From Candidatus Methanomethylophilaceae archaeon (GTDB taxonomy: Archaea > Thermoplasmatota > Thermoplasmata > Methanomassiliicoccales > Methanomethylophilaceae), in NCBI GenBank assembly GCA_944320495.1, contig CALUHR010000005.1, positions 248,001 through 312,000 of the forward strand: 64,000 nt of DNA. The letters are read 5' to 3'. This document shows, piece after piece, positions 7,073 to 26,192 of this stretch (position 1 is its first letter; each line of letters starts with the position of its first letter). Under the pieces are notes generated by a model. The model was not told where the DNA came from. It did no database searches and saw nothing but the letters and a program-made list of their open reading frames with translations. The position numbers and the translations under genes are program-made.

Positions 7073-7160
7073 ATTGGGACATCCCAAGTTCCAGAGTTGA
7101 CGCATCTCGCCATGACCCAAGAGTTGTTTTAGGACGTTGTCAATCCAACTCGGGGATTGG

Positions 7161-8621: not shown

Positions 8622-9485
8622 ATGCCCAAAAGCAACGATGCGATCCTGGCAGGGCAGTATAGGAAGCTCGACAGGACCAAGAACCGCGCCGTCCGCGACA
8701 AGCAGGCGTACGCGAGATACAACAGCAAGGCCGACAAGTACCGCTCCGGCACCGGGCACGGCATCGCCGTGTTCAGCCCCGTGTCGAAATCGGATACGTG
8801 GACCTACTCCGAGACCGGCGGCGAGACGAACGCCAACCGCAACCAGTACGGGGAGAAGGCCCCCGACAGGTCCTCCGGCATGGGCTTCGACGAGCACACC
8901 AAGATGCTCGCGAAGCAGATCGAGGCGGCCGAGAAGGACGCCAAGGACGCGAAGAAGAAGAGGAAGACGGCCAGGAGCGAGATGCTCGAGGCCCGCAACC
9001 AGCACATCGCGTACAGGATGGCCCAGGGCAAGGCCCACGGCGTCGTCGTGTACAGCACCAGGGCCAAGCCCGTCGTGGGCGAGGTCGAGGTGCCCAGCAG
9101 GCACGGTTCCTACAACCGCTACCCCGTCGACGAGGACGGGAGGATCCCCGCGAGGGAGGTCAGGAGGATCGTGGACGAGCGCGTCGGATACTCCGGCGTG
9201 GACGACGGAAGGACCGCCAGGAGGGTTTACCCGTCCAGGCCGACCCCCCAGATGATGGACGACTACCTCGCGAGGCCGAACAGGTCCGACATCGTCGGCA
9301 TCGATGCGCCGAAGGGAACCAGGCCGACGGTGGACGCGAGGACGTACAAGAAACCGAAGACCGCGTCCGCCAGCGGATCCTGCAAGGCGAAGGCCAAGGC
9401 GCCCGCGAAGTCCGCTTCTAAGAAAGCACCCGTGAAGAAGACTCCGGCCAAGTCCACCAAGGCCAAGACCTCCGGGAGGCGCTGA
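8622..9485 (+). CDS. First tail protein; carries SDIxGID module
   Basis: 287 residues; ATG with AGAGAAGGA upstream. Residues 1-150 are charged and helical, including a coiled-coil-like EAAEKDAKDAKKKRKTARSE. The module shared with 3510, 23401 and 25683 follows: RYPVDEDGRIPAREV near 167-181 and YLARPNRSDIVGIDAPKG near 213-230, with the usual WW replaced by DY. The last about 40 residues are the basic tail (KAKAKAPAKSASKKAPVKK, ending KTSGRR). It is the only protein bearing both the module and an intact tail, which ties the two systems together. It opens the cluster; the next gene starts 2 nt after its stop. Confidence 0.7.
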   Translation: MPKSNDAILAGQYRKLDRTKNRAVRDKQAYARYNSKADKYRSGTGHGIAVFSPVSKSDTWTYSETGGETNANRNQYGEKAPDRSSGMGFDEHTKMLAKQIEAAEKDAKDAKKKRKTARSEMLEARNQHIAYRMAQGKAHGVVVYSTRAKPVVGEVEVPSRHGSYNRYPVDEDGRIPAREVRRIVDERVGYSGVDDGRTARRVYPSRPTPQMMDDYLARPNRSDIVGIDAPKGTRPTVDARTYKKPKTASASGSCKAKAKAPAKSASKKAPVKKTPAKSTKAKTSGRR

Positions 9486-9487
9486 CC

Positions 9488-9928
9488 ATGGTCGACTACT
9501 CCGACATCGTCGGGAACAGCATCGTGGCCAGCGTCATCCAGTCTGACCCCGACACCTTCGAGGAAGTCGTGGCCAAGGCCGTGAGGACGACATCCAGCCG
9601 CAGCCAGGCCGCATCCAAGGTCGAGGACTACGTCAACGACGTCCTCTGGGACGTCATCAACGGTATGGAGGAGTACGAGCCCATCGCCTACTCCCTCGCA
9701 TACTACGGGATGCAGTCGATGGAGTACGACGGCATCGGCGACGACATGACCCTGATCGTGGACACCTACATCAGGGAGAACGGCCCCAAGGCCGCATCCG
9801 TCAGGCGTTCCCCGAACGGCAGGTCCGCACCCAAGCCCAAGTCCGCAGCCTGCAAGCCCAAGGCCAAGGCACCCGCGAAGAGGACGCCCGCCAAGTCCGC
9901 CAAGGCCAAGACTTCCGGGAGGCGCTGA
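9488..9928 (+). CDS. Tail protein, helical family I
   Basis: 146 residues. The acidic helical domain (1-105) ends MEYDGIGDDMTLIVDTYIREN. It resembles, in length and in a C-terminal 'ID(Y)xx(V)' helix, the proteins at 9931, 11211, 12537 and 14122. Tail from about 107: SAACKPKAKAPAKRTPAK then SAKAKTSGRR. Starts 2 nt after the previous stop and ends 2 nt before the next start. The tail's last codons match those of 8622 almost base for base (KAKTSGRR). Confidence 0.7.
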   Translation: MVDYSDIVGNSIVASVIQSDPDTFEEVVAKAVRTTSSRSQAASKVEDYVNDVLWDVINGMEEYEPIAYSLAYYGMQSMEYDGIGDDMTLIVDTYIRENGPKAASVRRSPNGRSAPKPKSAACKPKAKAPAKRTPAKSAKAKTSGRR

Positions 9929-9930
9929 CA

Positions 9931-10368
9931 ATGTCCTACAACGGATACAGGAACAGCGCCACCTGGGGCGTCGCGCTGATCTTCGGCAACGACTACGGCT
10001 ACTACCAGCTGTCCAGGGAGTGGGTCGAGGCATGCGCCCGCAAGGGGATGACCAAGGCCCAGGCCAAGGGGAGGATCGCCGAGCTCATCGAGAACGAGGT
10101 CGACCACGAGTGGGACGGGGCCTACGACGCCGTCGCCCGCGTCGGGCCGATCGCGTCCCAGCTGCTCCCGTCCCTCGGGAGCATGGAGATCGACTACGGC
10201 GAGGTGGCCGACGGCATGCTCGAGGACTACTCCGACCTCAGGAAGGAGTGCGCGTCGTCCTCCGCCAGGCCGAAGGCCGGGAGCGCTGCGTGCAAGTCCA
10301 AGGCACCCGCGAGGAAGTCCCCGGCGAAGTCCTCCAAGCCGAAGTCCAAGACCGCAGGGAGGCGCTGA
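9931..10368 (+). CDS. Tail protein with YNGYxNxxTW motif
   Basis: 145 residues. It begins SYNGYRNSATWGVALIFGND, matching the 'YNGWxNxxTWxxALWxxND' start seen in a family of small phage and plasmid proteins of unknown function (I recall it as DUF7249-like; not verified). The helical middle (KGMTKAQAKGRIAELIE) is followed by MEIDYGEVADGMLEDY. Tail from about 112: CKSKAPARKSPAKSSKPKSK then TAGRR. Closest in-window relatives are 11211, 12537 and 14122. Confidence 0.75.
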   Translation: MSYNGYRNSATWGVALIFGNDYGYYQLSREWVEACARKGMTKAQAKGRIAELIENEVDHEWDGAYDAVARVGPIASQLLPSLGSMEIDYGEVADGMLEDYSDLRKECASSSARPKAGSAACKSKAPARKSPAKSSKPKSKTAGRR

Positions 10369-10369
10369 C

Positions 10370-10750
10370 ATGCTCCCTCAGACGTTCGAAGGGGAGGACG
10401 GCTTCGTCTCCGAGGTCGTCTACTACACCCTCTGCAAGAGGATCGACAGGCTCATGGACTCCCTGTACCGCAAGGGCGTGAAACCCCGCGACATGCGCAG
10501 TGACATCAGCGGGCTGATCGATTCGGAGATCGGAAAGGTGAACGCCGCCGGCATGAGGCCGGACGCCACCCTCACGGAAGCCCTGGCATACGCGATCGCC
10601 GACTGGTACTACGAGGAGAGGAACGATGTCGTCCAGTTCTGCATCGACAACTATGTCCCTCCCAGCGGTTCCAAGGCATCCAGGCCCAAGGCACCCGCCA
10701 AGAAGTCCCCGGCGAAGTCCTCCAGGCCGAAATCCAAGGGGAGGCGCTGA
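10370..10750 (+). CDS. Tail protein, short helical domain
   Basis: 126 residues. Domain 1-92 (VVYYTLCKRIDRLMDSLYRK ... EALAYAIADWYYEERNDVVQ) is helical and acidic; it may be a diverged member of the YNGW family without its first motif. Tail from about 95: SKASRPKAPAKKSPAKSSRP then KSKGRR. Its ATG begins one base after the previous stop. Confidence 0.7.
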   Translation: MLPQTFEGEDGFVSEVVYYTLCKRIDRLMDSLYRKGVKPRDMRSDISGLIDSEIGKVNAAGMRPDATLTEALAYAIADWYYEERNDVVQFCIDNYVPPSGSKASRPKAPAKKSPAKSSRPKSKGRR

Positions 10751-10752
10751 CC

Positions 10753-11214
10753 GTGGCCCGGAGTCCCATCCGCATAGACTACGGTCATGTGAGCGGGATG
10801 GCACTGGACATCGTCGTGGTGTACGAGCCGAAGTTCTCCGACACCCTCTGGGAGTGCGTCTCCGAGGGCATGGGCAAGGCCGACTGCATCGAGGAGCTCC
10901 GCTACTACCTCTACCACGGTGCCGAGCTCGCCGTCGGCAACACTAGGTTCGCCCCCGATCCCGACACCCCGCAGGACGAGCTCGACCTTTGCAGGAACAT
11001 CGCCCTCAGGGGCGTCGACGACTACCAGGCGAGCGGGGAGGCCGACAGGGCCGCCAGTATCCTCGTGAACGACAACTACGAGAGGTTCAGGGCAGCCGTC
11101 AGGGACCACGGGAGCGGATCCCGCAGGACCGCTCCGAGGGGCGGTGCCAGCAGGCCGAAGGCCAAGGCACCCGCCAGATCTTCCAAGCCCAAATCCAAGG
11201 GGGTGAGGAGATGA
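10753..11214 (+). CDS. Tail protein, GTG start
   Basis: 153 residues, starting at GTG 10753 two bases after the previous stop (no in-frame ATG is better placed). Domain 1-120: IRIDYGHVSGMALDIVVVYE then alternating acidic helices (LWECVSEGMGKADCIEELRYYL; VDDYQASGEADRAASILVND). Tail from about 122: GGASRPKAKAPARSSKPKSK then GVRR. From this gene on, the tail codons GGGGGTGAGGAG run into the next ATGA. No family recognised. Confidence 0.7.
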   Translation: MARSPIRIDYGHVSGMALDIVVVYEPKFSDTLWECVSEGMGKADCIEELRYYLYHGAELAVGNTRFAPDPDTPQDELDLCRNIALRGVDDYQASGEADRAASILVNDNYERFRAAVRDHGSGSRRTAPRGGASRPKAKAPARSSKPKSKGVRR

Positions 11215-11645
11215 CCTACAACGGTTGGGCCAACCGCCCCACCTGGGCGATAGCCCTCTGGTTCGACAACGACGAGGGCCTGAGTTCCATGAAGGACGAA
11301 TGGATCCAGGATGCCGCCGATCAGGGGATGTCCTATGAGGAGGCCGAGGACTACGTCTGGGACCGTCTCGAGGAGTACGTTGAGGAGGAGTACGCCGAGG
11401 CATGCGACTCCGTCAACCCCATGATCGCCGACGCGCTGCTGATGTCCCCCGGAATGGCCAACATCGTCTTCTCCGAGATCGTCAGAGGGTTCCTCCGTGA
11501 CGCGGACTACAGGCCCGCGGCGTCCGGTTCCAAGAAGCGGAAGGTCGGGGGCGTTCCCAAGAGCGGTTCCAAGGCTGTCAAGCCCAAGGCGAAGACGCCC
11601 GTGAAGAAGGCGTCCAAGCCGAAGTCGAAGAGGGTCCACAGATGA
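11211..11645 (+). CDS. Tail protein with YNGWANRPTW motif
   Basis: 144 residues; ATGA overlap with the previous gene. The best match in the window to the 'YNGWxNxxTWxxALWxxNDEGL' family (residues 2-22), then a helical acidic body (SYEEAEDYVWDRLEEYVEEE) and NPMIADALLMSPG, which is echoed in 12537 (NPMIADFIGSFPG). Tail from about 108: SKAVKPKAKTPVKKASKPKS then KRVHR, the only member ending in VHR. Function unknown; the family is typical of phage and plasmid accessory regions. Confidence 0.75.
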   Translation: MTYNGWANRPTWAIALWFDNDEGLSSMKDEWIQDAADQGMSYEEAEDYVWDRLEEYVEEEYAEACDSVNPMIADALLMSPGMANIVFSEIVRGFLRDADYRPAASGSKKRKVGGVPKSGSKAVKPKAKTPVKKASKPKSKRVHR

Positions 11646-11998
11646 CCCGCTATCGCACGCCCGACGGCGACGTCATCGACGAGGGCGACCTCGAGGACGC
11701 AATCTACGCCGCATTCACCGAGGACGACTTCAGACGCTGGCTGGACTCGAACTACTCTGGGTTCGACTATGACAGGTACCACATCCCCGCGTCCGAGGTC
11801 CTGGACGTCATGGGAGAGTTCGACTACAAGTACCGCGAGACGGTGGACTCCATCGTCTCCGACTACGGGTCCGACTATCCGTCACTGGAGGACCTTGGAT
11901 TCGAGGAGCTCGACGACGATGACGATGAGTCCCACTCCAAGAGGCCGAAGGCCCGTCCCAAGACCTCCAAGCCCAAGTCCAAGGGGGTGAGGAGATGA
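11642..11998 (+). CDS. Tail protein, 'PDGDVI' family
   Basis: 118 residues; ATGA overlap. It starts TRYRTPDGDVIDEGDLEDAI, is very acidic, and contains YHIPASEVLDVMGEF. It pairs with the next protein (11995), which keeps the same order of a 'YxxxDG' start, an AF..YLDNEF helix and a 'Y(E/I)PSEV' motif, and more weakly with 16602. Tail from about 98: RPKARPKTSKPKSKGVRR, one of the shortest. Confidence 0.7.
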   Translation: MTRYRTPDGDVIDEGDLEDAIYAAFTEDDFRRWLDSNYSGFDYDRYHIPASEVLDVMGEFDYKYRETVDSIVSDYGSDYPSLEDLGFEELDDDDDESHSKRPKARPKTSKPKSKGVRR

Positions 11999-12540
11999 TG
12001 TGGACCTATGAGGATAGGGACGGCGTCATCCGCGTCGCCGACGAGCAGGAGATCCTCTACAAGGTGACGCCCGACGCGGCCTTCGCCAAGTACCTGGACA
12101 ACGAGTTCTCCGAGATCGACATCCTAGACCGCACCTACGAGCCGTCGGAGGTGTTCATCGAATGGTCCGAGGATGACTTCGCCAGGGCTGCCTCCGAGTG
12201 GTTCAACGACGCCATCTTCCACCCGACCGAGAGGGACCTCTCCTACTTCGAGGAAATCGGAGTCTTCCCCGCGACCGAGGAGGACATCCGCAACGAGAAG
12301 GTGGACAGGGGCATCGACAGGGTCGGCAAGAGGTCCGCGGGACTACAGAACGCCCTCGGAAAGAGGGGTTCCGGCACCGCCAGGCCGAAAGCCGGCGGCA
12401 GGATGACCATCAGGCCGAGGGCGAAGCCGAAGACTCCCGTGAAGAAAGCGTCCAAGGCGAAGTCCGCGTCCAAGACCGCCAAACCGAAGACTCCCGTGAA
12501 GAAGACGTCCAAGCCCAGATCCAAGGGGGCCCGCAGATGA
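11995..12540 (+). CDS. Tail protein, paralogue of 11642, long tail
   Basis: 181 residues; ATG at 11995 (a second ATG follows at 11998). Domain 1-110 is a diverged copy of the 11642 protein (YEDRDGVIRVADEQEILY; YEPSEVFIEWSEDDFA). The tail is unusually long (about 125-181) with an internal duplication: KTPVKKASKAKSASKTAKP and KTPVKKTSKPRSKGARR. Tail-length variation inside a near-repeat DNA sequence is what slippage or recombination would give. Confidence 0.7.
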   Translation: MMWTYEDRDGVIRVADEQEILYKVTPDAAFAKYLDNEFSEIDILDRTYEPSEVFIEWSEDDFARAASEWFNDAIFHPTERDLSYFEEIGVFPATEEDIRNEKVDRGIDRVGKRSAGLQNALGKRGSGTARPKAGGRMTIRPRAKPKTPVKKASKAKSASKTAKPKTPVKKTSKPRSKGARR

Positions 12541-12989
12541 CCGGCTCCGACTGGGCCAACTACGAGACGTGGCTCGTCCACGTCCACATGTTCAACGAAG
12601 AGTCCGTGCGGAAGGAGTTCCGCTCCGCCCTCGAGAAGAGGGCCAAGGAGGGGCTGGACCGCCGCACGGTCCGTGACATCGTCACGCATGATGTCCAGGC
12701 TTTCGTGGAGGAGACCGCCGAGGAGGCGTCCCGGCGCGTCCGCAACCCCATGATAGCCGATTTCATCGGATCCTTCCCGGGACGCATAGACTGCTCCCAG
12801 ATTGCCGACTCGTGGATGGAGGTCTACGACGGCATCGCCGCGGAGCAGGTGACATCCAGGTCCCCTTCCAAAGGGACCGCTCGCAACACACCGACGAGGA
12901 AGGGACAGAGGTCCCGCGCCCAGAGGTCGAGACGATCGAGGGGAGGTGTTTCTGAATGGTTTACAACGGAAGATCGAAAGGAAAGATGA
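12537..12989 (+). CDS. Tail protein, NYETW family, diverged tail
   Basis: 150 residues; ATGA overlap. WANYETWLVHVHMFNEES (residues 5-22) is close to the NYETW signature of the phage/plasmid family; the body shares NPMIADFIGSFPG with 11211. The C-terminus is basic but no longer the standard tail: PSKGTARNTPTRKGQRSRAQ, then RSRRSRGG, and it runs past the start of the next gene (12956) to finish WFTTEDRKER. The tail has apparently decayed or been replaced. Confidence 0.65.
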   Translation: MTGSDWANYETWLVHVHMFNEESVRKEFRSALEKRAKEGLDRRTVRDIVTHDVQAFVEETAEEASRRVRNPMIADFIGSFPGRIDCSQIADSWMEVYDGIAAEQVTSRSPSKGTARNTPTRKGQRSRAQRSRRSRGGVSEWFTTEDRKER

Positions 12990-14125
12990 AATCGAGAGGA
13001 ATGGGAACGAAAGCCGGGAGGAGGCCTCCCGCATCCCGGTCGCTGAAGGCGGTCGTCACGCCCGACGTGTCGCCGGAGAGCCCCTTCGACGGCATGTCGA
13101 TGTTCGGTTCCCTTCTGATATGCGATCCGAGCGTCGGCAATACCCGCAACTACGTGTCCTTCGAGGATCTGGACGAGTTCTGCAACGCGAAGTTCGACAT
13201 AGACAGGTTCTACGATGAGGTCTACACCAGGAGCGAGAGGGACGTCGCCACATACATCCGTATGTACGGCGCACTGGCCGTGGAGGTCCGCGGCGCACTC
13301 ATCATCGCGGGCCACGAGCAGATCGTCCGCGAGTACGGCTACGACAACGCCGATTCGAGGGCGAAGGCCCTGGACCTCCTGAGAAACGAGGCCGAGATCT
13401 ACATGCAGTGGGCCGACGGGGACGTCTGGCAGGCCATCGTCTATGACGACCACACCGACGACGAGTCCGTCCCGGACAGAGTCGTCATCAGGTACGATCC
13501 CTGGGACGACGACGAGGACGGCGATATCGTGGACTCCCTGGGCGAACTGTACGGACAGGAGTACGCCGAGCAGGAAGCTAAGCGCATGATCGTCGACGAG
13601 AGGGAATCCCGCGGGCAGACCCCGAACTTCGCCAAGGGTTCGGCGTCGAGGAAGGCTCCAAAGAGCCGTTCCGCGTACAGTGCGAAGGGACGCCCTTCCG
13701 TCGGCCAGTATGACAGGGCGAGATACGCCAGGGCCACGAGCGGCGGACACTCGATTCTCAGGGTCTACTACGATCCGGGCGAGTCCGAGATGATGGGACG
13801 CCCCGTCTACGACGTGGTTGCCCGCAAGGCCGGCATCCCCGGGCTTATCTGGGGCAAGGACTACGACCCCGCCTCCGGCCTCTGGAGCGGAGGGGACTAC
13901 GACATCACGAGGGAGAAGCTCGAGAGACACGCGATGGGACATGACCTCATCCGCGAGTACGGGCAGATTCCCGCGGACGCGTTCGGGAGGTCCAAGGGCA
14001 TGAGCCAGACGTCCAGACCGAAGTCTAAGCCGAAGGTTCCCGCATCCAAGGCTGCCAAGCCGAAGTCCAAGGCGCCAGCGAAGAAGCCCGTCGCCAAACC
14101 CAAGGCGGAGGGGGGACGCAGATGA
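12956..14125 (+). CDS. Large two-part tail protein
   Basis: 389 residues; ATG with GGAGGTG eight bases upstream, within the end of the previous gene. A basic N-terminal 30 residues, an acidic alpha/beta domain (SLLICDPSVGNTRNYVSFED ... GHEQIVREYGYDNADSRAKA), a middle basic linker (GSASRKAPKSRSAYSAKGRP, about 218-237), a second domain (ILRVYYDPGESEMMGRPVYD ... HAMGHDLIREYGQIPADAFG), then a terminal tail (from about 341, ending KPKAEGGRR). The internal basic linker suggests fusion of two formerly separate cassettes. No family recognised. Confidence 0.65.
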   Translation: MVYNGRSKGKMKSRGMGTKAGRRPPASRSLKAVVTPDVSPESPFDGMSMFGSLLICDPSVGNTRNYVSFEDLDEFCNAKFDIDRFYDEVYTRSERDVATYIRMYGALAVEVRGALIIAGHEQIVREYGYDNADSRAKALDLLRNEAEIYMQWADGDVWQAIVYDDHTDDESVPDRVVIRYDPWDDDEDGDIVDSLGELYGQEYAEQEAKRMIVDERESRGQTPNFAKGSASRKAPKSRSAYSAKGRPSVGQYDRARYARATSGGHSILRVYYDPGESEMMGRPVYDVVARKAGIPGLIWGKDYDPASGLWSGGDYDITREKLERHAMGHDLIREYGQIPADAFGRSKGMSQTSRPKSKPKVPASKAAKPKSKAPAKKPVAKPKAEGGRR

Positions 14126-14562
14126 CCCTCCGCGACGAAGCCCCGCTGACCTTCGAGTTCGGCAACAACACCTGGCTCACCTGGGAGTACTACCGCGACA
14201 ACGAAGCCCTCTCCGAGTCCTGGACGGAGGAATGCGCCCGGGAGGGACTGACCCGCACCCAGGCCGTCGAGAGGATCGTCGGGAACATCAGGGACGATCT
14301 CGCCGACGCCTTCAGGGACGGCGTGTTCAGTACGCAGAACCCGGCGACTTCCGCGGTCCTGCTCCAGGACCCCGATCTCATGGACATCGACTACAGGCAG
14401 GTCGCCGTACGCATCGTCCATGCGTTCTGGCCCGAGGGGTCCGCATCCCCGAGAAGGGCGTCCAAGCCGAAGGCACCCGCGTCCAAGGCGAACAAGCCGA
14501 AGGCCAAGGCACCCTCCAAGAGGCCCACAACCAAACCCAAGTCCAAGGGGGGACGCAGATGA
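14122..14562 (+). CDS. Tail protein, helical family I
   Basis: 146 residues; ATGA overlap. EFGNNTWLTWEYYRDNEALS is a diverged 'NYETW..ND.AL' start, followed by EECAREGLTRTQAVERIVGN (compare EACARKGMTKAQAKGRIAEL in 9931) and LMDIDYRQVAVRIVHAFW. The similarity to 9931 across the whole domain makes them clear paralogues separated by about 4 kb. Tail from about 108: RRASKPKAPASKANKPKAKA, ending KPKSKGGRR. Confidence 0.75.
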   Translation: MTLRDEAPLTFEFGNNTWLTWEYYRDNEALSESWTEECAREGLTRTQAVERIVGNIRDDLADAFRDGVFSTQNPATSAVLLQDPDLMDIDYRQVAVRIVHAFWPEGSASPRRASKPKAPASKANKPKAKAPSKRPTTKPKSKGGRR

Positions 14563-15368
14563 AGGGCAGGACCGCAACCAGGTCCCCGTCCAAGCGCTCC
14601 GTCATCTACCCGGTCAGGGACGCGCCCTGCCCGGTCAGGACGACAGCGGGTTCCGACATCACGGACGACGTGATCCTGTTCCGCCGCAAGGGCAGGCAGG
14701 GGGACCCCGCCGCGTATCTCACGGACGACGGACGCTCCCTCATCGACCTCGTGGCCGCCAAGGCCGGCCCCGATGCCGCGGGAGGGTTCGCATCCCACAG
14801 GTTCCGCTCCGACGACACCATGACGAGGGCGCTCAGGGAGCTCGGCATATCCAACGAGGTCGTGGACGAAGGCATCCTGGCATCGGCTAGGGGCATCTAC
14901 GGCTACGAGTCCTACGACTACAGGATGTGGTCCAACGGCCACACCGGATACCGCGTCGCCCATGTGGAGGACCCCTCCGACGACACGGGCAGGAACCTCA
15001 TCGTGGACGACGAGTCGAAGATCCCTGGCAGGGTCATCTCGAAGGGGAACCGCATCTACTACAACGAGAGCAAGGCGGAGCTCCACGGTGCCGAGTTCGG
15101 CAGGGACAACGCCCCGAAGAGGGACTGGAGGTTCAGCCTGGCGTTCCGCGGGGATACCAGCGGGCTCACGGTCGAGGAAGTCTCCAGGCTCGGCTACGAC
15201 GGGCGCGACATGGAGGTCGGCGACGAGATGTCCGTCGGCCCCCTCGTGATCAGGAGAGTCAAGGGCGACGCCATGGACTACGTCTCGAGGTCTGGCTCGC
15301 CGAGATCGAAGGCCAAGGCGCCCGCCAAGAAGGCATCCAAACCCAAGTCCAAGGGGGTGAGGAGATGA
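14559..15368 (+). CDS. Tail protein, SKRSVIYP family, copy 1
   Basis: 269 residues; ATGA overlap. Begins RSPSKRSVIYPVRDAPCPVR and contains DDTGRNLIVDDESKIPGRVI, EFGRDNAPKRDWRFS, and LGYDGRDMEVGDEMSVGPLV. The next gene (15365) preserves every one of these blocks in order, so the pair is a tandem duplication. The last block resembles a small beta module. Tail from about 244: RSKAKAPAKKASKPKSKGVR then R. No family recognised. Confidence 0.75.
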   Translation: MKGRTATRSPSKRSVIYPVRDAPCPVRTTAGSDITDDVILFRRKGRQGDPAAYLTDDGRSLIDLVAAKAGPDAAGGFASHRFRSDDTMTRALRELGISNEVVDEGILASARGIYGYESYDYRMWSNGHTGYRVAHVEDPSDDTGRNLIVDDESKIPGRVISKGNRIYYNESKAELHGAEFGRDNAPKRDWRFSLAFRGDTSGLTVEEVSRLGYDGRDMEVGDEMSVGPLVIRRVKGDAMDYVSRSGSPRSKAKAPAKKASKPKSKGVRR

Positions 15369-16222
15369 ACGGCAAGGCACCGAGATCCCCATCCAAGCGT
15401 TCCGTCATATATCCGGCGAAGAACGCGACCTGCCCCGTAAGGACCAAGGCGGGAAAGGACCCCGCGGCCAACTCGACACTCTACCGCTTCAGGGGCGACG
15501 TCGTCGGGGACCCGAACGCATACGTCACCGACGACGGGAAGACTCTCGTGGATCTCGTCGGAGCTGTGGCGGGTCAGAAGGATGCCGAGGAGTTCTCCGG
15601 ACACAGGTATCGCACCATCGACGCGCTTCTGGACCGTCTCGGGGGATTCGACATCTATGCGACTCGCTGCTCGGACCTCTCGATAGTCGCCGGGAGATAC
15701 AGCATAGTGTACGACGAGGCCAAGGATTATGACCGCTGGCTCGACGGCGACGTGTTCCGTGTCGCCGAGGTCGACGACCCGTCCGACGATACCGGCAGAA
15801 CCCTCTACGTCGATGATGTGTCTCAGATCCCCGGGCGTATAATCCGCAAGAGGCACGGTGTGTACTCTTACGAGGACGCACAGCACACGGCGGCGGAATT
15901 CGGCATGGAGAATGCCCCGAAGAGGGACTGGAGATTCTATGTCGGTCAGAGGCCTGGTGACAACTCCATCGGCTACGATGATGCGGTCAGACTCGGCTAC
16001 GACGGTCGTGACATGAAGGTCGGCGATTATATGGAGGTCGGGCCTCTCATAATCCAGAGGGTCGATGGCCATCTGTCGGGCTATTTCGCCCCGGACTCCG
16101 ACGGCTCCAAACCGATAACCAGGAGGACGGTCGGGCCGAAGGCTGGGACATCCGGCAAGGTACCAACCAAGACTCTCGCATCCAAAGCCACCAAGCCCAA
16201 GTCCAAGGGGGTGAGGAGATGA
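15365..16222 (+). CDS. Tail protein, SKRSVIYP family, copy 2
   Basis: 285 residues; ATGA overlap. Tandem paralogue of 14559: RSPSKRSVIYPAKNATCPVR, DDTGRTLYVDDVSQIPGRII, EFGMENAPKRDWRFY, LGYDGRDMKVGDYMEVGPLI. The N-terminal half has diverged most. The tail is shorter (KTLASKATKPKSKGVRR). DNA encoding the last eight codons is nearly identical to that of 14559 and 16219. Confidence 0.75.
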   Translation: MNGKAPRSPSKRSVIYPAKNATCPVRTKAGKDPAANSTLYRFRGDVVGDPNAYVTDDGKTLVDLVGAVAGQKDAEEFSGHRYRTIDALLDRLGGFDIYATRCSDLSIVAGRYSIVYDEAKDYDRWLDGDVFRVAEVDDPSDDTGRTLYVDDVSQIPGRIIRKRHGVYSYEDAQHTAAEFGMENAPKRDWRFYVGQRPGDNSIGYDDAVRLGYDGRDMKVGDYMEVGPLIIQRVDGHLSGYFAPDSDGSKPITRRTVGPKAGTSGKVPTKTLASKATKPKSKGVRR

Positions 16223-16605
16223 GCGTCAGCGCGTTCGTCCACACGTACTTCATCAGATACCTGGAAGAGAAGGGCGTGGACATCTACGACTACGCCATGG
16301 AGCTGGCGGAGAGCGGCAGGGACTACTGGGACTGCGAGGAGGTGTTCGCGGACTACATCGAGCGTCTCGCCATCGAGTTCCAGTACGATGCGGCGGACTA
16401 CGCCGAGTCGGACATCACCACGATGCTCGTCGAGGACTGCCTCCTCAGGGAGGTCGTGGACTTCGACCTGTTCTTCGACAGGGACGGCAGCCCGCTGAAG
16501 GGCAGGTCCGGTTCCCGCAGGCCCGCGTCCAAGGCAACCGGGCCCAAGGCCAAGGCATCTGCCAAGAAACCCTCCAAGCCCAAGTCCAAGGGGGTGAGGA
16601 GATGA
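16219..16605 (+). CDS. Tail protein, HTYFIRYLEE family, copy 1
   Basis: 128 residues; ATGA overlap. SAFVHTYFIRYLEEKGVDIY, YAMELAESGRDYWDCEEVFA and DYIERLAIEFQYDAADY are matched by 17204 (VFVARAFLKYLDG..., YALKLADSGRTERECEDAYA, DYIGRLAVEFQRSAVND). All-helical and strongly acidic, then tail from about 94: ASKATGPKAKASAKKPSKPK then SKGVRR. No outside family recognised. Confidence 0.75.
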   Translation: MSVSAFVHTYFIRYLEEKGVDIYDYAMELAESGRDYWDCEEVFADYIERLAIEFQYDAADYAESDITTMLVEDCLLREVVDFDLFFDRDGSPLKGRSGSRRPASKATGPKAKASAKKPSKPKSKGVRR

Positions 16606-17207
16606 CCGGGTACGGCTGGGAGTTCCCGGACGGAACCGTCATCCCCGTCGAGGACGGTTCCGCCGTCGAGGACAAACTCCTCTCGATGGACTCCTTCTGG
16701 GACAGGAACAGGAAGGACTGCCTCCGCCAGGGGCTGTTCTACCAGTGGTACTGCGACGAGATCGGGCGCGACATCGAGAACATGTCCGAGAGGGAGCTCT
16801 ACGACCACTTCGGCGTCAGATGCTCCGAGGACAGGGACGGGAAGGTCGTCTACGTCCTGCCCGAGGGTGACAGGACCGATGCGAGGGGACTCTTCGAGTG
16901 GATCGAGGAAGAGGGCTACCGCTACGACGAGTGGCTGGAGTTCAACTCCGACTGCTACGACTTCAAGGAGCTGGTGAAGAACGAGGCCGAGTATCTGACC
17001 TCCGACTACGGCAACGAGGAGTCCATGGGGTACTACGGCGTCAGGCTGGTACCGATGTCCTCCGGATCCAAGAGGCCGTCCAAGCCGAAGGCGAGGACTC
17101 AGGCGAGGAAACCCGTCTCGAAGTCCGCGTCCAAGGCATCCAAGCCCAAGGCCAAGGCTCCCGCGAGGAAAGCATCCAAGCCCAAGGCGAAGGGGGTGAG
17201 GAGATGA
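16602..17207 (+). CDS. Tail protein inserted between a paralogue pair
   Basis: 201 residues; ATGA overlap. It starts YGWEFPDGTVIPVEDGSAVE, related in style to the 'PDGDVI' starts at 11642 and 11995, followed by a Trp/Tyr-rich acidic domain. It lies between the two copies of the HTYFIRYLEE family (16219 and 17204), as if a cassette had been inserted between them. The tail from about 152 is long, with a repeated unit: SKASKPKAKAPARKASKPKA then KGVRR. Confidence 0.7.
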   Translation: MTGYGWEFPDGTVIPVEDGSAVEDKLLSMDSFWDRNRKDCLRQGLFYQWYCDEIGRDIENMSERELYDHFGVRCSEDRDGKVVYVLPEGDRTDARGLFEWIEEEGYRYDEWLEFNSDCYDFKELVKNEAEYLTSDYGNEESMGYYGVRLVPMSSGSKRPSKPKARTQARKPVSKSASKASKPKAKAPARKASKPKAKGVRR

Positions 17208-17596
17208 CCGCCGACGTGTTCGTCGCCCGCGCCTTCCTCAAGTACCTGGATGGGAGACGGGAGAGACACGATCTCTACGCCCTGAAGCTGGCCGACAGCG
17301 GCAGGACCGAACGGGAATGCGAGGACGCGTACGCCGACTATATCGGACGTCTCGCCGTCGAGTTCCAGCGGAGTGCGGTGAATGACGTCGATCCGGACGT
17401 CACGGAGCAGCTCGTCGAGGACTTCGACTTCCATGAGTTCGTGGACACGGGCTACTACTTCGAGTTCGACGGGACCCCGCGCGACAGGTTCGGCACCCGC
17501 AGGGCCGGGTCCGCGTCCAAGGCATCCAGGCCGAAGGCCAAGGCTCCCGCGAAGAAGCCCGCATCCAAGCCCAGGTCCAAGGGGGCGAGGAGATGA
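17204..17596 (+). CDS. Tail protein, HTYFIRYLEE family, copy 2
   Basis: 130 residues; ATGA overlap. Paralogue of 16219 along its whole acidic helical domain; ends VDTGYYFEFDGTPRDRFG where the copy has VVDFDLFFDRDGSPLKGR. Tail from about 97: SKASRPKAKAPAKKPASKPR then SKGARR. Confidence 0.75.
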   Translation: MTADVFVARAFLKYLDGRRERHDLYALKLADSGRTERECEDAYADYIGRLAVEFQRSAVNDVDPDVTEQLVEDFDFHEFVDTGYYFEFDGTPRDRFGTRRAGSASKASRPKAKAPAKKPASKPRSKGARR

Positions 17597-19023
17597 CCGC
17601 ACCCAGGCGCAGAGCATCCTCGAGGTCCGCCCGCTACGCGGGGGACCTCCCCAAGAGGATCCGCGACCACCCGTACCTGTCCGTCCCGGGAGGCGTCCTC
17701 CGCCTCCCCGACGGGACAAGGGTGTACGCCGAGTCGGACATCGAGCTCCTCGATGGCCAGGACGAGGGTCTCGTCTACTTCTGGACGGACGCGGTCGACG
17801 AGGAGGGCGGATACTACGGCATCGCGTTCTCCTTCGAACTCGACGAGCTCATGAGGACCCCCTGGAACAAGGTGGACTGGCAGGGACACATCGACGACGT
17901 GACCTACGAGCCGCCCGAGAGCGGTTCCAAAAAGCCCAGATCCAAGACCAAAGTCTCAAAGAGGCCCGTCTCCAAGTCCTCCAAGCCCCGCGTCTTCACC
18001 GTGGCCGATTGGGACGCGGGGAGGATCGGGGAGATGAGGCCCGGCGACGGGCTCGACAGGGAGCTGTACGACGGACTCCGCTGGAACGGCTACCCCTACC
18101 CCGCCGACCCCCGCGTCCTGGCGGCCAACGGTTGCATCCGCGGGTACTGTCTGGGGAAGGTCAGCGATAGGGGCAACTACACCTACGGCGAGACCCCCGA
18201 CGGGAGATACGTCTACCTCGGTCTCTCGATCCCGCTGGACGAGACGCCCTACACCATGGCCCTGTCCAACCCGAACAGCCTCGATTCCCGCTACGACGCC
18301 CGCGTCGCCGCGAAGGAGGTCGAGGCCGAGGAGAGACGCCAGAGGGAGTGGGCCAAGGATCCCCGCTCCAAGTACGTCGATGTGGACGAGTGCAGGATCT
18401 ACGGGGCCGTCGAGACGTTCGACGACCTCGTGGAATACTACACGCTCTTCAACCCGGAGTATGCGGAGCGTCTCCGCGACCCCGAGGTCGTTGGGTATCT
18501 GAGGGACTACTACGCCCACATGGACTGGGTGAGCCACGGGAACGGACCCAGCTACGACGAGGACGTGGACGGGGAGACGATGCTCAGCCATCTGTACGAC
18601 CTCACCGAGGAGGCCGAGTCGTTCCAGACGGAGTTCATGGAGGACGAGTACGAGAACGGCGACACCGACATGCTGGACTTCCTCAGACGCCGTGCGGCGA
18701 TCCAGAGGAGGTACGGAGTCGAACCAGACTGGAAGGATTCTTCCAGTGGTTCCAGGAAGGGCAAGACACCCTCCAAGGCGTCCAAGCCCAAGGCACCTGT
18801 CAGGAAGGCCGCCCCCAAGGCGGCCTCCAAGACCACCAAGCCGAAAGCGAAGACTCCCGCCAAGAGGCCCGCCGCCAAGCCCAAGACAAAGGGGGCGAGG
18901 CGATGGGCACGTCCAACTACGCCCACGACACCAGCTTCCTCGTATGGGCCTTCGAGTACGAGCCCGACGAGGACTGGTACCGCGAGGAGTTCCCCGACGA
19001 GTCCGACGACTCGATCCACCTGA
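17593..19023 (+). CDS. Fused two-domain tail protein, stop after tail lost
   Basis: 476 residues as an open frame; ATGA overlap at the start. Domain 1 (1-105), an internal tail (about 106-135: SGSKKPRSKTKVSKRPVSKS then SKPR), domain 2 (about 136-385, beginning VFTVADWDAGRIGEMRPGDG) and a terminal tail ending KPKTKGARR at about residue 437. The internal tail is direct evidence that two cassettes fused by losing a stop. After the terminal KGARR there is again no stop (CGATGGGC instead of ...GATGA), so the frame runs 40 codons into the next gene; those residues are low-complexity shadow sequence. Confidence 0.65.
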   Translation: MTAPRRRASSRSARYAGDLPKRIRDHPYLSVPGGVLRLPDGTRVYAESDIELLDGQDEGLVYFWTDAVDEEGGYYGIAFSFELDELMRTPWNKVDWQGHIDDVTYEPPESGSKKPRSKTKVSKRPVSKSSKPRVFTVADWDAGRIGEMRPGDGLDRELYDGLRWNGYPYPADPRVLAANGCIRGYCLGKVSDRGNYTYGETPDGRYVYLGLSIPLDETPYTMALSNPNSLDSRYDARVAAKEVEAEERRQREWAKDPRSKYVDVDECRIYGAVETFDDLVEYYTLFNPEYAERLRDPEVVGYLRDYYAHMDWVSHGNGPSYDEDVDGETMLSHLYDLTEEAESFQTEFMEDEYENGDTDMLDFLRRRAAIQRRYGVEPDWKDSSSGSRKGKTPSKASKPKAPVRKAAPKAASKTTKPKAKTPAKRPAAKPKTKGARRWARPTTPTTPASSYGPSSTSPTRTGTARSSPTSPTTRST

Positions 19024-19568
19024 TGATGGCCGAGGACCGCGACATGGAGTACAGGCAGGTCGAGAAGGCCGTCCAGCCCATGCTGGACCGCCTCAACTCC
19101 GATCTCCTGTTCCACAGACTGGGTATCCGCTCCGGGTACTACGACGGCATCCAGGTCTATGTCGACGAGCCGTCCCAGGACAGGTGGCTGGTGCCGGAGC
19201 TCCGCGATGCCTGGGAGGAGATGTACGGCGAGGACTCCGTCCCCGACGACACCAGACTCCTCGGCGTCTACGCCGACGAGCGCACCCGCATCAGGAAGTG
19301 GCTGAGGGACAACCTGCCCCGGCTCGGGTTCCATGCCCTGAGGTACACCTCTCCGTGGACGATCGAGCGCGTGGAGAATCCCAGCAGGAGGGCGTCCAAG
19401 CCGAAGGCGAAGAACCCCGCAAAGAGGTCCAGGCCGAAGGAATCGTCCAAGACGGTCAAACCGAAGACTAAGCCCAAGAACCAAGAGAAGAACTCTGGAA
19501 CTAAGTCCAGAAAGAGGTTCCGACATGTCCAAACGCGAGCGTGGCGGTGTCGGAAAGAGACCTGGTAG
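18903..19568 (+). CDS. Tail protein with altered C-terminus
   Basis: 221 residues; ATG 18903, inside the read-through end of the previous frame. GTSNYAHDTSFLVWAFEYEP may be a remote NYETW relative. The body is acidic and ends FHALRYTSPWTIERVENPSR. Tail from about 160 (RRASKPKAKNPAKRSRPKES; KTVKPKTKPKNQEKNSGTKS) continues into a Trp/Cys-containing end (VQTRAWRCRKETW) that overlaps the next gene (19525), so the original KG-RR stop is lost here too. Confidence 0.65.
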   Translation: MGTSNYAHDTSFLVWAFEYEPDEDWYREEFPDESDDSIHLMMAEDRDMEYRQVEKAVQPMLDRLNSDLLFHRLGIRSGYYDGIQVYVDEPSQDRWLVPELRDAWEEMYGEDSVPDDTRLLGVYADERTRIRKWLRDNLPRLGFHALRYTSPWTIERVENPSRRASKPKAKNPAKRSRPKESSKTVKPKTKPKNQEKNSGTKSRKRFRHVQTRAWRCRKETW

Positions 19569-20466
19569 AAGGTCGTATCATCAACCAGGACAGCCCAGAT
19601 ACCCCGTCAGGAGGTCCCCAGAAGAATTCAAAGAGATGGGTTCCAAAGTCTCCAAGATTGGCAGAATCGAAAAAAGAAGATCGATCTGGGCCATAGACGA
19701 TTCAGGAACTGCTGATTTTACCGAAGGTGCGAGTGAATACCTGACGTTGACGGCAGTGACGATGCTGAACGAATCGGATTTCAGGAAGATGTTCTCTAAC
19801 ATCACACTGTATGATGGGGAGATAAAATTCAATCTCCTGAGATTGGAACATCCCGACGAATGTCTCACTGCCATGAAGCGCATCGGCAGCAGTACGGCCT
19901 TCATCGCTTGCTACCCTCGCTTCAAGGATTTTTCCAATCCCCAGGATCGTCGTCTGTTCTTCTTGGAATCCCTACAGAAACTCATCGATTCTATCATGCG
20001 GATCGATCGTTCGAGTCTTGTCCTGATAGGTGTGGATGAGAACAACTACCTGTTGTCCTCTGACTACTACGAACTATGCAGTCCCAGATGCCTGGTATTC
20101 CCTATCGACTCGAAGGATTCTCTCCTTTTGCAGACAGCGGACATGGCCACGAGTAGCTTGGGCCATGCCCTGCTTCCCGCGAATAGGGGGACATCCGCAT
20201 ATTTCGATGAAATCAGAGACAGAACGATGAATGTACACGGGAAGCCCGGCGTAAGCACACAGCAAACACCAAGGGGCTTCAACCGTGACGATATAGAATC
20301 GACCACAGAAGTTAAAAAGGTTGGTGGGTCCAAATCATCCAAATCCCGTTCTACGAAGGTTGTTCGTGGAAAGGATGGAAGATTCGTATCCTCTAACCCC
20401 TCCAAGCAGAAATCAACCCAGAAAAATGAGTCGAAGGCATCCAAGCCCAAGGGGGTCCGCAGATGA
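19525..20466 (+). CDS. DUF3800-like protein carrying the shared tail
   Basis: 313 residues with clearly lower GC than neighbours. WAIDDSGTADFTEG (about 52-65) followed by LTLTAVTM, LVLIGVDENN, and DSKDSLLLQTADMATSSLG match the pattern of DUF3800 proteins (Asp at the end of strand 1, D..S..LQ.AD near the end), a group thought to have an RNase H-like fold and often found on phages and mobile elements. The C-terminus has a Ser/Lys-rich linker and the standard ending ESKASKPKGVRR. Low GC and a foreign domain joined to the local tail suggest a newly captured gene. A second DUF3800-like gene lies at 24425. Confidence 0.7.
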   Translation: MSKRERGGVGKRPGRRSYHQPGQPRYPVRRSPEEFKEMGSKVSKIGRIEKRRSIWAIDDSGTADFTEGASEYLTLTAVTMLNESDFRKMFSNITLYDGEIKFNLLRLEHPDECLTAMKRIGSSTAFIACYPRFKDFSNPQDRRLFFLESLQKLIDSIMRIDRSSLVLIGVDENNYLLSSDYYELCSPRCLVFPIDSKDSLLLQTADMATSSLGHALLPANRGTSAYFDEIRDRTMNVHGKPGVSTQQTPRGFNRDDIESTTEVKKVGGSKSSKSRSTKVVRGKDGRFVSSNPSKQKSTQKNESKASKPKGVRR

Positions 20467-20863
20467 CCCTTATATCCCCAGCCACTGATGTTGGCGATGC
20501 GGTCGCGGAAACACCTCGCAGTAGGGAACGTGGCGGCTCCCACGCGACTGCACCTCTTGTTTCAGATTGTGAAGATAGAAACGGACGCCCGCTCCCGGTT
20601 GTGGGCACAGTTCTCCCACAGTGTCGGGTGCGTCGTCCCCAGTGGTCCCAAGGTGTCACCCCCAGGTTGCCGCCTGCAAGGATCGATGCGGCTGAAGGTA
20701 TTTCAACCCATTCCCGCACCATCAACCGTACGTCCGTCCTCCGTGGACTGGCGCTGAACATTCTCTCGCACATCGCGGGGACCTCTGGGTCCCCCACAAA
20801 CCCCAACAAGGATGGGAATCCGATGAAAATGTACAGCGCAATCAGTGGAACGGGGGTCTCCGC
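20467..20863 (+). other. About 400-bp gap in the cluster with promoter signals
   Basis: An ORF from the tail ATGA (20463-20867, 134 codons) spans it, but composition is unlike its neighbours and I do not call it. Visible: TATA-like CTTATATC at 20467 and GGTATTTCAACC near 20696, a GGGGACC/GGGTCCCC hairpin near 20778-20795, and a 14-codon ORF (20823-20867, MKMYSAISGTGVSA) ending in an ATGA overlap with the next gene. Probably a decayed cassette plus an internal promoter. Confidence 0.4.
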
Positions 20864-21526
20864 ATGACCCTCTGGAACGTCTATCTGCCCCACGGCAACT
20901 TCGCCGAGAGGATGGCCGTCGAGGCCCCGAACGAGAGGGAGGCATTGGAGGCCGTCGCGGAGAAGCTCCGCGGGACCGTCTTCGTCATCGACTATGACGA
21001 GTGGGACGCCAGATTCCAGGACTACATCGCGGACGGGTACTCCGCCGACGAGGCGGAGAACATACTGGACGAGATGTACCTGCCGGTGGACGGCGGGTAC
21101 TACCTGGACATCACGGGCGTCACCATCGAGGAGGCCCGCGACACCGGCTCCGACGGCAGGGTCGACGCCGTCAAGCTGGCCTACGATCTCGCCGACTTCG
21201 GCGAGGAGACGGACCACTACGAGTTCTGGGACAACTACAACACCATGGAGGACGCCGTCACCCAGCTCACCCAGTCCCTGGGAACCCTCGCGGGCTCCAG
21301 GGCGATCCGCGACGACATCGCGGAGAGGATGGCCGAAGGATTCGCCACCTATGGCGAGGACGAGAAGGCCAGGGGCCTCATATCCAGGCTCGACAGGCAC
21401 ATCAGATCCTTCGGCAGCGGTTCCGGGAGGCCGAAGGCCGGGAGGCCCGTCTCCAAGGCGTCCAAACCGAAGGCCAAGGCACCCGCCAGATCCTCCAAGC
21501 CGAAAGCCAAGGGAGGACGCAGATGA
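20864..21526 (+). CDS. Tail protein
   Basis: 220 residues; ATG 20864 with GGGGGTC a few bases upstream. It starts MTLWNVYLPHGNFAERMAVE, then acidic alpha/beta and helical parts (FVIDYDEWDARFQDYIADGY; DEAENILDEMYLPVDGGYYL; DAVTQLTQSLGTLAGSRAIR). Tail from about 184: SGSGRPKAGRPVSKASKPKA then KAPARSSKPKAKGGRR. First gene after the 400-bp gap, so possibly the head of a second operon. Confidence 0.7.
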   Translation: MTLWNVYLPHGNFAERMAVEAPNEREALEAVAEKLRGTVFVIDYDEWDARFQDYIADGYSADEAENILDEMYLPVDGGYYLDITGVTIEEARDTGSDGRVDAVKLAYDLADFGEETDHYEFWDNYNTMEDAVTQLTQSLGTLAGSRAIRDDIAERMAEGFATYGEDEKARGLISRLDRHIRSFGSGSGRPKAGRPVSKASKPKAKAPARSSKPKAKGGRR

Positions 21527-21954
21527 ACTCGTACATCGACGCGGGGCAGATCGCCGAACACCTGAGGTACGAGCGCGACAGGGGGAGGCTCGAAGCCTTC
21601 CTCGATAGATCCGTGGATCTCGACGGCATCCTCATCAAGACGAGGGAGACGTCGAGGGGTGGCAGGGTCGTGTCCGAGCGCGTCATCGAGATGACGCTGC
21701 CGATCCGCTGGGCCGATCTCGGGGCCACCTTCGTCCTCAGGCCCCTCGCGCCCAACCACGTCGCCATGTACCCCGAGTCGGACCCCGAAGACCCTGTGTA
21801 TTCGACGGTGGCGAATGACGTCTGGAGATGGCTCCTGGACAGATACCGCGAATCCGCCGCCGGACACGGCGTGGACATCGATGCCTACGGGACCGTCATC
21901 ACGGCTTCCCTGAGGCCGGCATCCAAACCCAAGTTCAAGGGGGCGAGGAGATGA
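21523..21954 (+). CDS. Tail protein, minimal tail
   Basis: 143 residues; ATGA overlap. Domain 1-127 has beta character (VIEMTLPIRWADLGATFVLR) and a C-terminal helix (VWRWLLDRYRESAAGHGVDI). The tail is reduced to SLRPASKPKFKGARR, the shortest in the array, yet still ends in KG-RR with the ribosome-binding sequence for the next gene. That the end is kept while the length is not fits selection on the end. Confidence 0.7.
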   Translation: MNSYIDAGQIAEHLRYERDRGRLEAFLDRSVDLDGILIKTRETSRGGRVVSERVIEMTLPIRWADLGATFVLRPLAPNHVAMYPESDPEDPVYSTVANDVWRWLLDRYRESAAGHGVDIDAYGTVITASLRPASKPKFKGARR

Positions 21955-22286
21955 GCGCGCGCATCAACGACCCGCTCGGGTTCGCCAACGGCGTGATGCC
22001 CAGGAACCCTCCCCAGGCTTACCGTGCGGTGATCATGCGTCCCGACGGCAGCGTCAGCATCACCCATGAGTTCCCCCGCGGATTCCTCGAGCAGGTAGTC
22101 ATCCCGGACGCCCTTGCCCAGGTTCCGGGCGGAAGGCTCTTGGAGATAATCCGCGACGAGGATAAGGAGGCCTGGATAAGGGCGCACACCAAGCCCAGGT
22201 CCGCGTCCAAGGCGTCCAGGCCGAAGGCCAAACCTCCGGCGAAGAAACCCGCGTCCAAACCCCGTTCCAAGGGGGCGGTACGCTGA
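21951..22286 (+). CDS. Last tail protein of the array
   Basis: 111 residues; ATGA overlap. Small domain (1-78) with AYRAVIMRPDGSVSITHEFP and RGFLEQVVIPDALAQVPGGR; tail from about 80: SASKASRPKAKPPAKKPASK then PRSKGAVR, ending VR rather than RR. The following junction reads GGTACGCTGAAC, so the usual ATGA has become CTGA. Confidence 0.7.
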   Translation: MSARINDPLGFANGVMPRNPPQAYRAVIMRPDGSVSITHEFPRGFLEQVVIPDALAQVPGGRLLEIIRDEDKEAWIRAHTKPRSASKASRPKAKPPAKKPASKPRSKGAVR

Positions 22287-23023: not shown

Positions 23024-23400
23024 TTGATACTTCCGCCGGAACGGACATCGTCGGAGAGAAAGGCGGGAATGGCGAGACTTGCACGCAGCAGAATCGCTAC
23101 TTCATCCCCGTATCTCCGATTCATCCGCTGGCTAAGAATCTTTCTGGAAGAATGGAGGCGGATAACATAATATCCTCCACAAGAGGTATGCCGTACTGCA
23201 ATTCGGCGGAAAATATATCGCTACCAGGGGAAGCGGCGAGACCCCCCGCTGGATTGCGTTCTGTTGTGTTCTCCAAAATCCAAATTCAGGAGATCGAAGT
23301 ACAGGGATGCGCCGAAATCGACCTCGCAGAAGTCGGGATACGCATCCCCGCACCCTCCATCCCCTCCCCGACCAAGAACCTTTGCACGGAGGTGTCCGCA
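23024..23400. other. Intergenic region with promoter for 23401
   Basis: AT-richer stretch with TATA-like AAATATATCG at 23211-23219, which would leave a leader of about 155 nt before the GGAGGTG site of the next gene. Nothing else recognised. Confidence 0.4.
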
Positions 23401-25682: not shown

Positions 25683-26192
25683 ATGTACCGCATCGTGAAG
25701 CGCAGGGACGGCACCACCGTCCGCATACCCGTCGGAGAGGACGGCTACGTCCCCTTCGACGCCTACGTCGAAAGGAACAACAAGCGCTCCAGGCGTGCAA
25801 GGACGATGGACTCCAAGAGGGTGTCCAGAAGGCTCCTGAACCCTCTGATGACGCCCGAGGACGCCGCCGACTGGTGGGTACACCCCGAGAGGTCCGACAT
25901 CAAGGGCGTGGACGCACCGGCGAGAAAGAAGGAAGTCATCGCTCCGAAGAAGAGGAACCCTAAGGCATTCTTCGGGGAGAACAGGCGCAGATCGAGCGTC
26001 GCCAACCTGCCCTGGCTGTCCGATCCGCAGGAGGCCCAGGCGAAGGCGAGGGAGATGGGCGTCAGCGAGGACATGATCCGCGCGTACCAGCAGGCGGCCT
26101 GGGACGATCTGGACGTCCAGCTCGGCGTCCCGCGCCACACCGAGATGTTCGACTCGAACTCGAAGCGTCCGAGGAACAGGAGACGCGGATGA
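25683..26192 (+). CDS. SDIxGID-module protein, short form
   Basis: 169 residues; ATG 25683 right after AGGAGGTG. The clearest copy of the shared module: VKRRDGTTVRIPVGEDGYVP (4-23), then a basic helix with ARTMDSKRVSRR, and AADWWVHPERSDIKGVDAPA. The second half (NLPWLSDPQEAQAKAREMGV; AYQQAAWDDLDVQLGV) matches the end of 23401. Terminus basic (KRPRNRRRG). The module occupies the first about 80 residues, so this may be its minimal form. Function unknown. Confidence 0.65.
   Translation: MYRIVKRRDGTTVRIPVGEDGYVPFDAYVERNNKRSRRARTMDSKRVSRRLLNPLMTPEDAADWWVHPERSDIKGVDAPARKKEVIAPKKRNPKAFFGENRRRSSVANLPWLSDPQEAQAKAREMGVSEDMIRAYQQAAWDDLDVQLGVPRHTEMFDSNSKRPRNRRRG

Follow-up and report, generated by a model that had tools for sequence, protein, structure and literature searches.

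Why would some 20 neighboring genes, encoding mostly different domains, end in similar basic tails? This question is raised by an array of open reading frames (ORFs) in a window of 64,000 nucleotides from a Candidatus Methanomethylophilaceae archaeon (GenBank assembly GCA_944320495.1, contig CALUHR010000005.1, positions 248,001 to 312,000), part of a 1.77-Mb genome. The array belongs to an apparently integrated, likely viral element. The comparisons described below point to a putative portable, polycationic C-terminal tag, likely DNA binding, which probably co-packages fast-evolving effectors.

Array proteins and their basic C-terminal tails

The array comprises 22 ORFs (T01 to T22 in gene order; Table 1), all on the forward strand between positions 8622 and 22286, and most neighbors overlap by 4 bases (ATGA) or are separated by 1 to 2 bases. 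In 17 of the 22 genes, the C-terminal 30 residues carried a net charge of at least +8 (actual values, +9 to +12). Among 317 control genes, which the same script had called in host stretches and in the neighborhoods of related elements without such arrays, 12 reached this value. The five genes below this value were T07, T09, T17, T19, and T21, with T07 and T21 carrying short tails. In 15 aligned tails the shared part, a stretch of approximately 25 to 45 residues, was located at the C terminus. A first-pass annotation, made from the letters alone, had described an array of about 22 tailed proteins with acidic N-terminal domains, and both descriptions were confirmed: the N-terminal parts were mostly acidic, with charges down to −26, against tails of up to +12, exceptions including T01 (+18) and T19 (+6). 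Such opposite charges in one protein could suggest that the array proteins form condensates driven by basic tails and acidic domains. However, the cargo is not uniformly acidic, as T01 and T19 illustrate, and we consider this explanation highly improbable.

Most array proteins (19 of 22) are 110 to 290 amino acids long, none of the 22 has a hydrophobic segment, and the 20 scanned with Pfam (T18 and T22 were outside the scan) contain at most one recognized domain each, with no match to a linker histone H1/HU-like family domain. The domains had been called unrelated, which was mostly right except for a few paralog groups. T12 and T13 are 51% identical, T14 and T16 are 50% identical, and DUF7249 (PF23907) was recognized in T03 (32.8 bits) and T06 (41.2 bits; cutoff, 27), with T09 under the cutoff at 20.5 bits and T11 alignable to this group at 30% identity. 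Judging from its sequence, T17 looks like two tailed genes fused. T19 encodes the DUF3800-like protein on which the first-pass annotation had placed the tail; the local tail type is indeed present at its end, although only about the last 11 residues are kept. With a GC content of 0.49, amid an array of 0.64, and an ending of the local tail type, T19 resembles a recent arrival that took up the tag.

The AlphaFold2 (AF2) model of T12 (nine input sequences) had a predicted local distance difference test score (pLDDT) of approximately 90 in the domain and below 50 in tail residues 247 to 269 (tail pLDDT, 37), and that of T06 (seven input sequences) showed a helical domain and a tail pLDDT of approximately 50. 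The tails are thus predicted to be disordered; the T15 tail alone matched no chain in the PDB. The ratio of nonsynonymous to synonymous substitution rates (dN/dS; NG86 method) in eight pairs ranged from 0.19 (T02) to approximately 1.6 (T14/T16), at high GC content in third codon positions (GC3). It was below 1 in six of the eight pairs and above 1 in two, namely, T15 versus its relative in the G075 genome and T14 versus T16. Since values reach approximately 1.6, several domains appear to evolve fast. Given the high GC3 and often high dS, these values do not firmly establish either purifying or positive selection across all members.

Tail types across related elements

A tail profile of 45 positions, built from 15 tails, was searched against the whole genome and gave 17 matches at an E value of ≤10, all 17 inside the array. 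Because the matches are confined to the array, the tail is not a generic host feature, and generic low-complexity C termini, which the first-pass annotation had considered as a possible undoing of its proposal, were ruled out. The same annotation had suggested a profile search of related genomes; at an E value of ≤0.001, no match was obtained in the other 101 family genomes searched. As the profile overlooks the arrays in genomes G075 and G004, this null speaks to the exact tail type, which is private to the element, and does not mean that tails are absent elsewhere.

Relatives of the Zot-family ATPase encoded upstream of the array were found in 24 of 147 genomes of the order, and the surroundings of 18 ATPase loci, including that of the window (termed own), were compared. 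Of 14 loci in GTDB contigs that encode a relative of the ATPase core, 13 were titled Methanomethylophilaceae, Methanomethylophilus, Methanomassiliicoccaceae, or Thermoplasmata, and the remaining one was a weak bacterial match. In G075, which like G077 shares the genus of the window genome, 17 genes lie downstream of the matching ATPase and peptidase, and 14 of them are tailed. G053 has six array genes directly after the peptidase (four tailed), joined to the ATPase and peptidase by overlaps and one 75-nucleotide gap, a linkage expected for coexpression with assembly genes. G004 has five array genes on one contig (four tailed) and its ATPase on a separate contig. In G077, whose ATPase is 54% identical, only 3 of 10 downstream genes are tailed, peptidase counted, and the other 14 ATPase loci have no tailed gene or one. 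Therefore, the array layout is common to several elements yet dispensable. To the left of the element core in G075, we also noted a 98-amino-acid ORF (L093, reverse complement of 770 to 1066) that by eye starts like T07 and has no basic tail.

DUF7249 matched in 5 of the 147 genomes at an E value of ≤0.01 (two over the cutoff) and in none of 14 control genomes; those in G056 and G008 are not part of such an array, and a cyanophage relative of T06 (tblastn E value, 1e-3) has 83 amino acids and no tail. No relatives were confirmed in scans of IMG/VR, the T12 family was not found in GTDB contigs, the Zot core was not found in phage records, and the T06 domain was not found in plasmids.

The tails differ in composition between elements, being rich in K, S, A, and P in the own array, K rich in G004, and R rich with more N and Q in G053, while the tails of metagenomic members of the T12 family contain cysteine or end in arginine. 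Three of the latter (P0006, P0007, and P0009) carry repeated CGSC-type cysteine motifs in their basic tails, which are perhaps metal binding or cross-linked. Scored by alignment against shuffled tails, the mean z-score was 5.6 between own tails, 2.4 between own and G075 tails, and 1.05 between own and G053 tails. Within the other arrays it was 2.7 for G075, 1.4 for G053 (6 pairs), and 2.9 for G004 (6 pairs), compared with 1.9 between G004 and own tails. When own and G075 genes were paired by best match (seven pairs, two own genes having one G075 partner in common), their tails scored 2.42, against 2.14 for 40 other pairs and 4.82 within the own array. A common recognizer or destination, as the first-pass annotation had proposed, is thus supported for the own array, where tails track the element and not the cargo, but the likeness within G075 and G053 is weak. 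Its single fixed tail motif is not supported, since other elements have different basic sequences. The basicity is kept despite these differences in sequence and in GC content (0.49 in G004, compared with 0.63 in the own array). The tail is a basic stretch, predicted to be disordered, that differs in sequence between elements, and not one motif.

Within families, the domains were better conserved than the tails. Mean identity was 71% for domains versus 37% for tails in the T02 family (36 pairs; P0021, P0023, P0024, and P0025 were left out as chimeric, shifted, truncated, or marginal) and 41% versus 31% in the T12 family (P0010 left out), and a basic tail was present in T02 and in all eight metagenomic relatives compared with it. 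Conversely, in the metagenomic proteins P0022 (T02 family) and P0012 (T12 family), the domains are unrelated (z-score, −1.4), whereas 27 of 29 residues of their tail core are identical (z-score, 15.1). Across these comparisons, tails go with the element more than with the cargo. Lysine-rich tails on H1- or HU-like proteins tether to nucleic acid, and the tails studied here might do the same in the producing cell only, on the host nucleoid or on the DNA or RNA of the element, with no packaging at all. Strong positive charge and predicted disorder would suffice for this, and an array that is accessory, being missing from most related elements, is consistent with it. Nevertheless, tethering alone leaves unexplained why tails are alike within the own array but different between elements and why P0022 and P0012 have a tail in common, and we regard it as unlikely.

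Tail ends, ribosome-binding sites, and exchange of DNA

The first-pass annotation had read G-V/G/A-R-R-stop as the shared ending of the tails. At 33 of 36 coupled junctions from three elements, however, a Shine-Dalgarno match of at least 5 nucleotides fell within the final codons of the preceding gene; three junctions of the own array had none. For example, AAG GGG GTG AGG AGA TGA encodes K-G-V-R-R-stop and also contains the next ATG, and in G075 and G053 other frames yield R-R-C or R-R-H at the tail end. Given the Shine-Dalgarno sequence in the upstream ORF at these 33 junctions, the terminal motif is largely an RNA-level feature, mainly the overlapping Shine-Dalgarno sequence of the next gene. 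A generic effect of translational coupling accounts for the last three to five residues only. At least two of the last three residues were K or R at 34 of 38 array junctions, compared with 22 of 135 other coupled junctions, and the charge of residues −30 to −5 was at least +7 at 31 of 38 array junctions, compared with 6 of 135.

The embedded binding sites could suggest that the tail is mainly a by-product of DNA: a 3′ segment common to these genes would contain the next ribosome-binding site and provide a place for gene swapping, and its peptide would be functionless. The G075 tails have a 45-nucleotide DNA run in common (simulated maximum, 21 on average; as high in 0.005 of runs), indicating recent DNA exchange, and T17 resembles two fused units. 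In the own array, codon agreement at shared residues was only 1.10 times chance, the longest shared run was 26 nucleotides (as high in 0.10 of simulations), and 8 tail pairs shared at least 18 nucleotides, compared with 3.8 expected (0.045). Most tail likeness is thus at the protein level or old, and a pure DNA repeat as the origin of the tails was ruled out by the near-chance codon identity, although G075 exchanged DNA recently. The strong charge of residues −30 to −5, which precede the binding site, and the persistence of basicity across different sequences and GC contents speak against a functionless peptide, which we consider very unlikely.

The surrounding element and the favored mechanism

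TABLE 1 Features of the array and of the surrounding element (window positions)
Feature	Position	Strand	Remarks
Zot-family (PF05707) P-loop ATPase	1782..3506	+	Marker of element family; Pfam E 1.9e-4; acidic C-terminal extension
HExxH zincin-like peptidase	3525..4658	+	Basic tail
T01	8622..9485	+	287 amino acids; basic tail; SDIxGID module, also in peptidase at 3525
T02	9488..9928	+	Tailed; conserved domain of ~95 amino acids
T03	9931..10368	+	DUF7249 domain; tailed
T04	10370..10750	+	Tailed
T05	10753..11214	+	Tailed; start GTG 10753 or ATG 10798
T05/T06 overlap example	11200..11214	+	T05 G-V-R-R-stop codons double as Shine-Dalgarno and start of T06
T06	11211..11645	+	DUF7249; tailed; AF2 model, helical domain
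T07	11642..11998	+	Acidic domain, short tail
T08	11995..12540	+	Tailed
T09	12537..12989	+	Weak DUF7249; degenerate tail running into T10
T10	12956..14125	+	389 amino acids; tailed; start uncertain
T11	14122..14562	+	Tailed
T12	14559..15368	+	Tailed; AF2-modeled domain
T13	15365..16222	+	T12 paralog; tailed
T14	16219..16605	+	Tailed
T15	16602..17207	+	Tailed
T16	17204..17596	+	T14 paralog; tailed
T17	17593..19023	+	Basic segment within the ORF near 17920; another tail near 18754-18903; without its stop, runs into T18
T18	18903..19568	+	Counted as tailed; short extension past tail
T19	19525..20466	+	DUF3800; GC 0.49; end of local tail type
T20	20864..21526	+	Very acidic domain; tailed
T21	21523..21954	+	Short tail
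T22	21951..22286	+	Tailed; final array gene
Untailed protein with SDIxGID module	25683..26192	+	Conserved in related elements
Tyrosine integrase	29133..30176	+	Right side of element; start 29133 or 29172

The conserved partners of the element cover at least 48 kb, with two large membrane proteins approximately 18 kb upstream of the window on one side and the integrase on the other. The metallopeptidase candidate of the first-pass annotation was borne out, with both an HExxH motif, kept in 16 of 16 homologs compared, and a basic tail. The ATPase profile matched no PDB sequence, and none of five ATPases checked has a hydrophobic segment. As Pfam recognized no capsid gene in 19 element proteins, the particle is inferred from the ATPase, integrase, and surface proteins, and the element is a putative provirus. 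No convincing attachment-site repeat and no left end were found, and the window contains no tRNA; an 18-bp direct repeat at 29208, inside the integrase gene, and approximately 26.0 kb left of the window is a candidate only.

Other genes of the element were also observed. A Fic/Doc-family protein lies at 7137 to 7640, between the peptidase and the array, and a 965-amino-acid protein resembling type IIG restriction-methyltransferases is encoded approximately 10.5 to 13.4 kb left of the window (L002:6607-9501, reverse strand). A second module, PVxxDGxVP ... WWxxPxRSDIxGIDTP, occurs in the proteins at 8622 to 9485, 3525 to 4658, 23400 to 24368, and 25683 to 26192 and in related elements.

The acidic ATPase extension, found mainly in elements with larger arrays, is suggestive of a transport signal: the tail might be read by this extension, as in type IV secretion substrates. 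Long acidic extensions occur in the elements with the largest arrays (charge of −10 in the own element, −14 in G075, and −11 in G004, whose array is on another contig), seven elements with no tailed gene or one have short ATPases without it, and C-terminal, positively charged type IV signals offer a precedent (PMC3297438). On the other hand, G053 has four tailed genes and an extension charge of only −3, in G098, with one tailed gene, the extension is 88 residues long and has a charge of −2, and the pattern is not independent because it follows ATPase relatedness. Moreover, Pfam recognized no type IV channel or coupling protein in 19 element proteins, a scan that could miss distant relatives. 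The tails do resemble type IV substrates in their C-terminal, positively charged cluster, but no channel was recognized, and the stretch of some 25 to 45 residues is strongly alike within the own array. We consider a transport signal quite unlikely.

Among the destinations listed by the first-pass annotation, nucleic acid binding or, putatively, packaging into a virion fits best. We favor, at somewhat less than an even chance, a charge-based, DNA-binding C-terminal tag that would load proteins on the element DNA for putative co-delivery. The chained genes would be expressed as one operon, and the tail would act via its charge as a nucleic acid-binding tag, putting the proteins onto the element DNA. 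The neighboring Zot ATPase and HExxH peptidase may serve assembly, with the ATPase driving DNA and cargo into a particle. The cargo would be set free in the next cell, where its domains might counter host defenses early in infection, and tail likeness could be maintained by gene conversion or tail capture or by one shared partner.

Several observations weigh against this mechanism. A polybasic tail could just as well attach to RNA, to the host nucleoid, or to an acidic partner. None of the array proteins has an established function; the model domains of T12 and DUF7249 (T06) gave no convincing match to a solved fold, and PADLOC gave no match among the six array proteins scanned. Among the 19 element proteins, Pfam recognized no capsid, portal, or conjugation gene. 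Strong tail homogeneity is found in the own array alone and is weak elsewhere, as the G075 tails are barely more alike among themselves than they are like the own tails and those of G053 score lower still. DNA sharing within the own array exceeds simulation only weakly, no contig with both P0022 and P0012 was seen, and G077, whose ATPase is close to that of the own element, has few tailed genes.

Known systems offer partial parallels. In the passages of PMC3012670 that treat them, the T4 internal proteins (IPI to IPIII) are described as highly diverse, with a targeting tag as the sole conserved part, and as delivered with the DNA, and IPI* is described as blocking a restriction enzyme. The array likewise combines diverse proteins with one shared tag. 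However, the T4 packaging signal is N terminal (PMC9024508, in the section concerned) and acts in a tailed-phage capsid, whereas the tag here is C terminal and polybasic, is not the same in different elements, and overlaps with the ribosome-binding site of the next gene, and no capsid gene was recognized among the 19 element proteins scanned. By analogy, the array would work like the T4 internal proteins by design, with packaging putative, and would not be a member of that family. For phage P1, a reporter is described as sent to the capsid by the first 30 residues of DarB alone, and the Dar antirestriction system as having six known proteins (PMC9024508); the array differs in tag position and in having about 20 genes with one tail. 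Polyvalent proteins of phages and conjugative elements are, in the portion of PMC5512222 on this subject, conflict proteins whose delivery is presumed to occur at entry and which frequently come with zincin-like peptidases, but they are multidomain chains, whereas the cargo here is divided among many separate short tailed proteins. For inoviruses, the pertinent part of PMC6813254 gives a Zot/pI-like ATPase as a conserved marker, with one or two transmembrane segments as a criterion. The element has a Zot-family ATPase too, but without a membrane segment, and spans at least about 48 kb; by the membrane-segment criterion it is not an inovirus. By title and abstract, we found no paper describing such an array, in a search that mostly did not cover subscription papers. 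On viruses of this methanogen order, the relevant text of a 2021 survey of human gut archaea describes single proviruses only (PMC8727293).

A fuller version of the favored mechanism, which we advance tentatively and consider somewhat unlikely as a whole, is a new archaeal viral cargo system. Each element would have its own basic "address tail," spread by gene conversion and capture over about 20 unrelated, fast-evolving counterdefense domains and embedding the ribosome-binding site of the next gene; effectors could be added or swapped, loaded automatically on the element DNA, and delivered. The same codons can serve both a peptide tail and a ribosome-binding site, and a captured gene would gain, in one step, the tag and a start signal for its neighbor. 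If the tag reading is true, the tail would suggest a compact C-terminal tag with which proteins could be put on DNA or packed into archaeal particles, and it would be a marker for finding unknown, probably defense-blocking proteins of the viruses that infect this order of methane-producing archaea.

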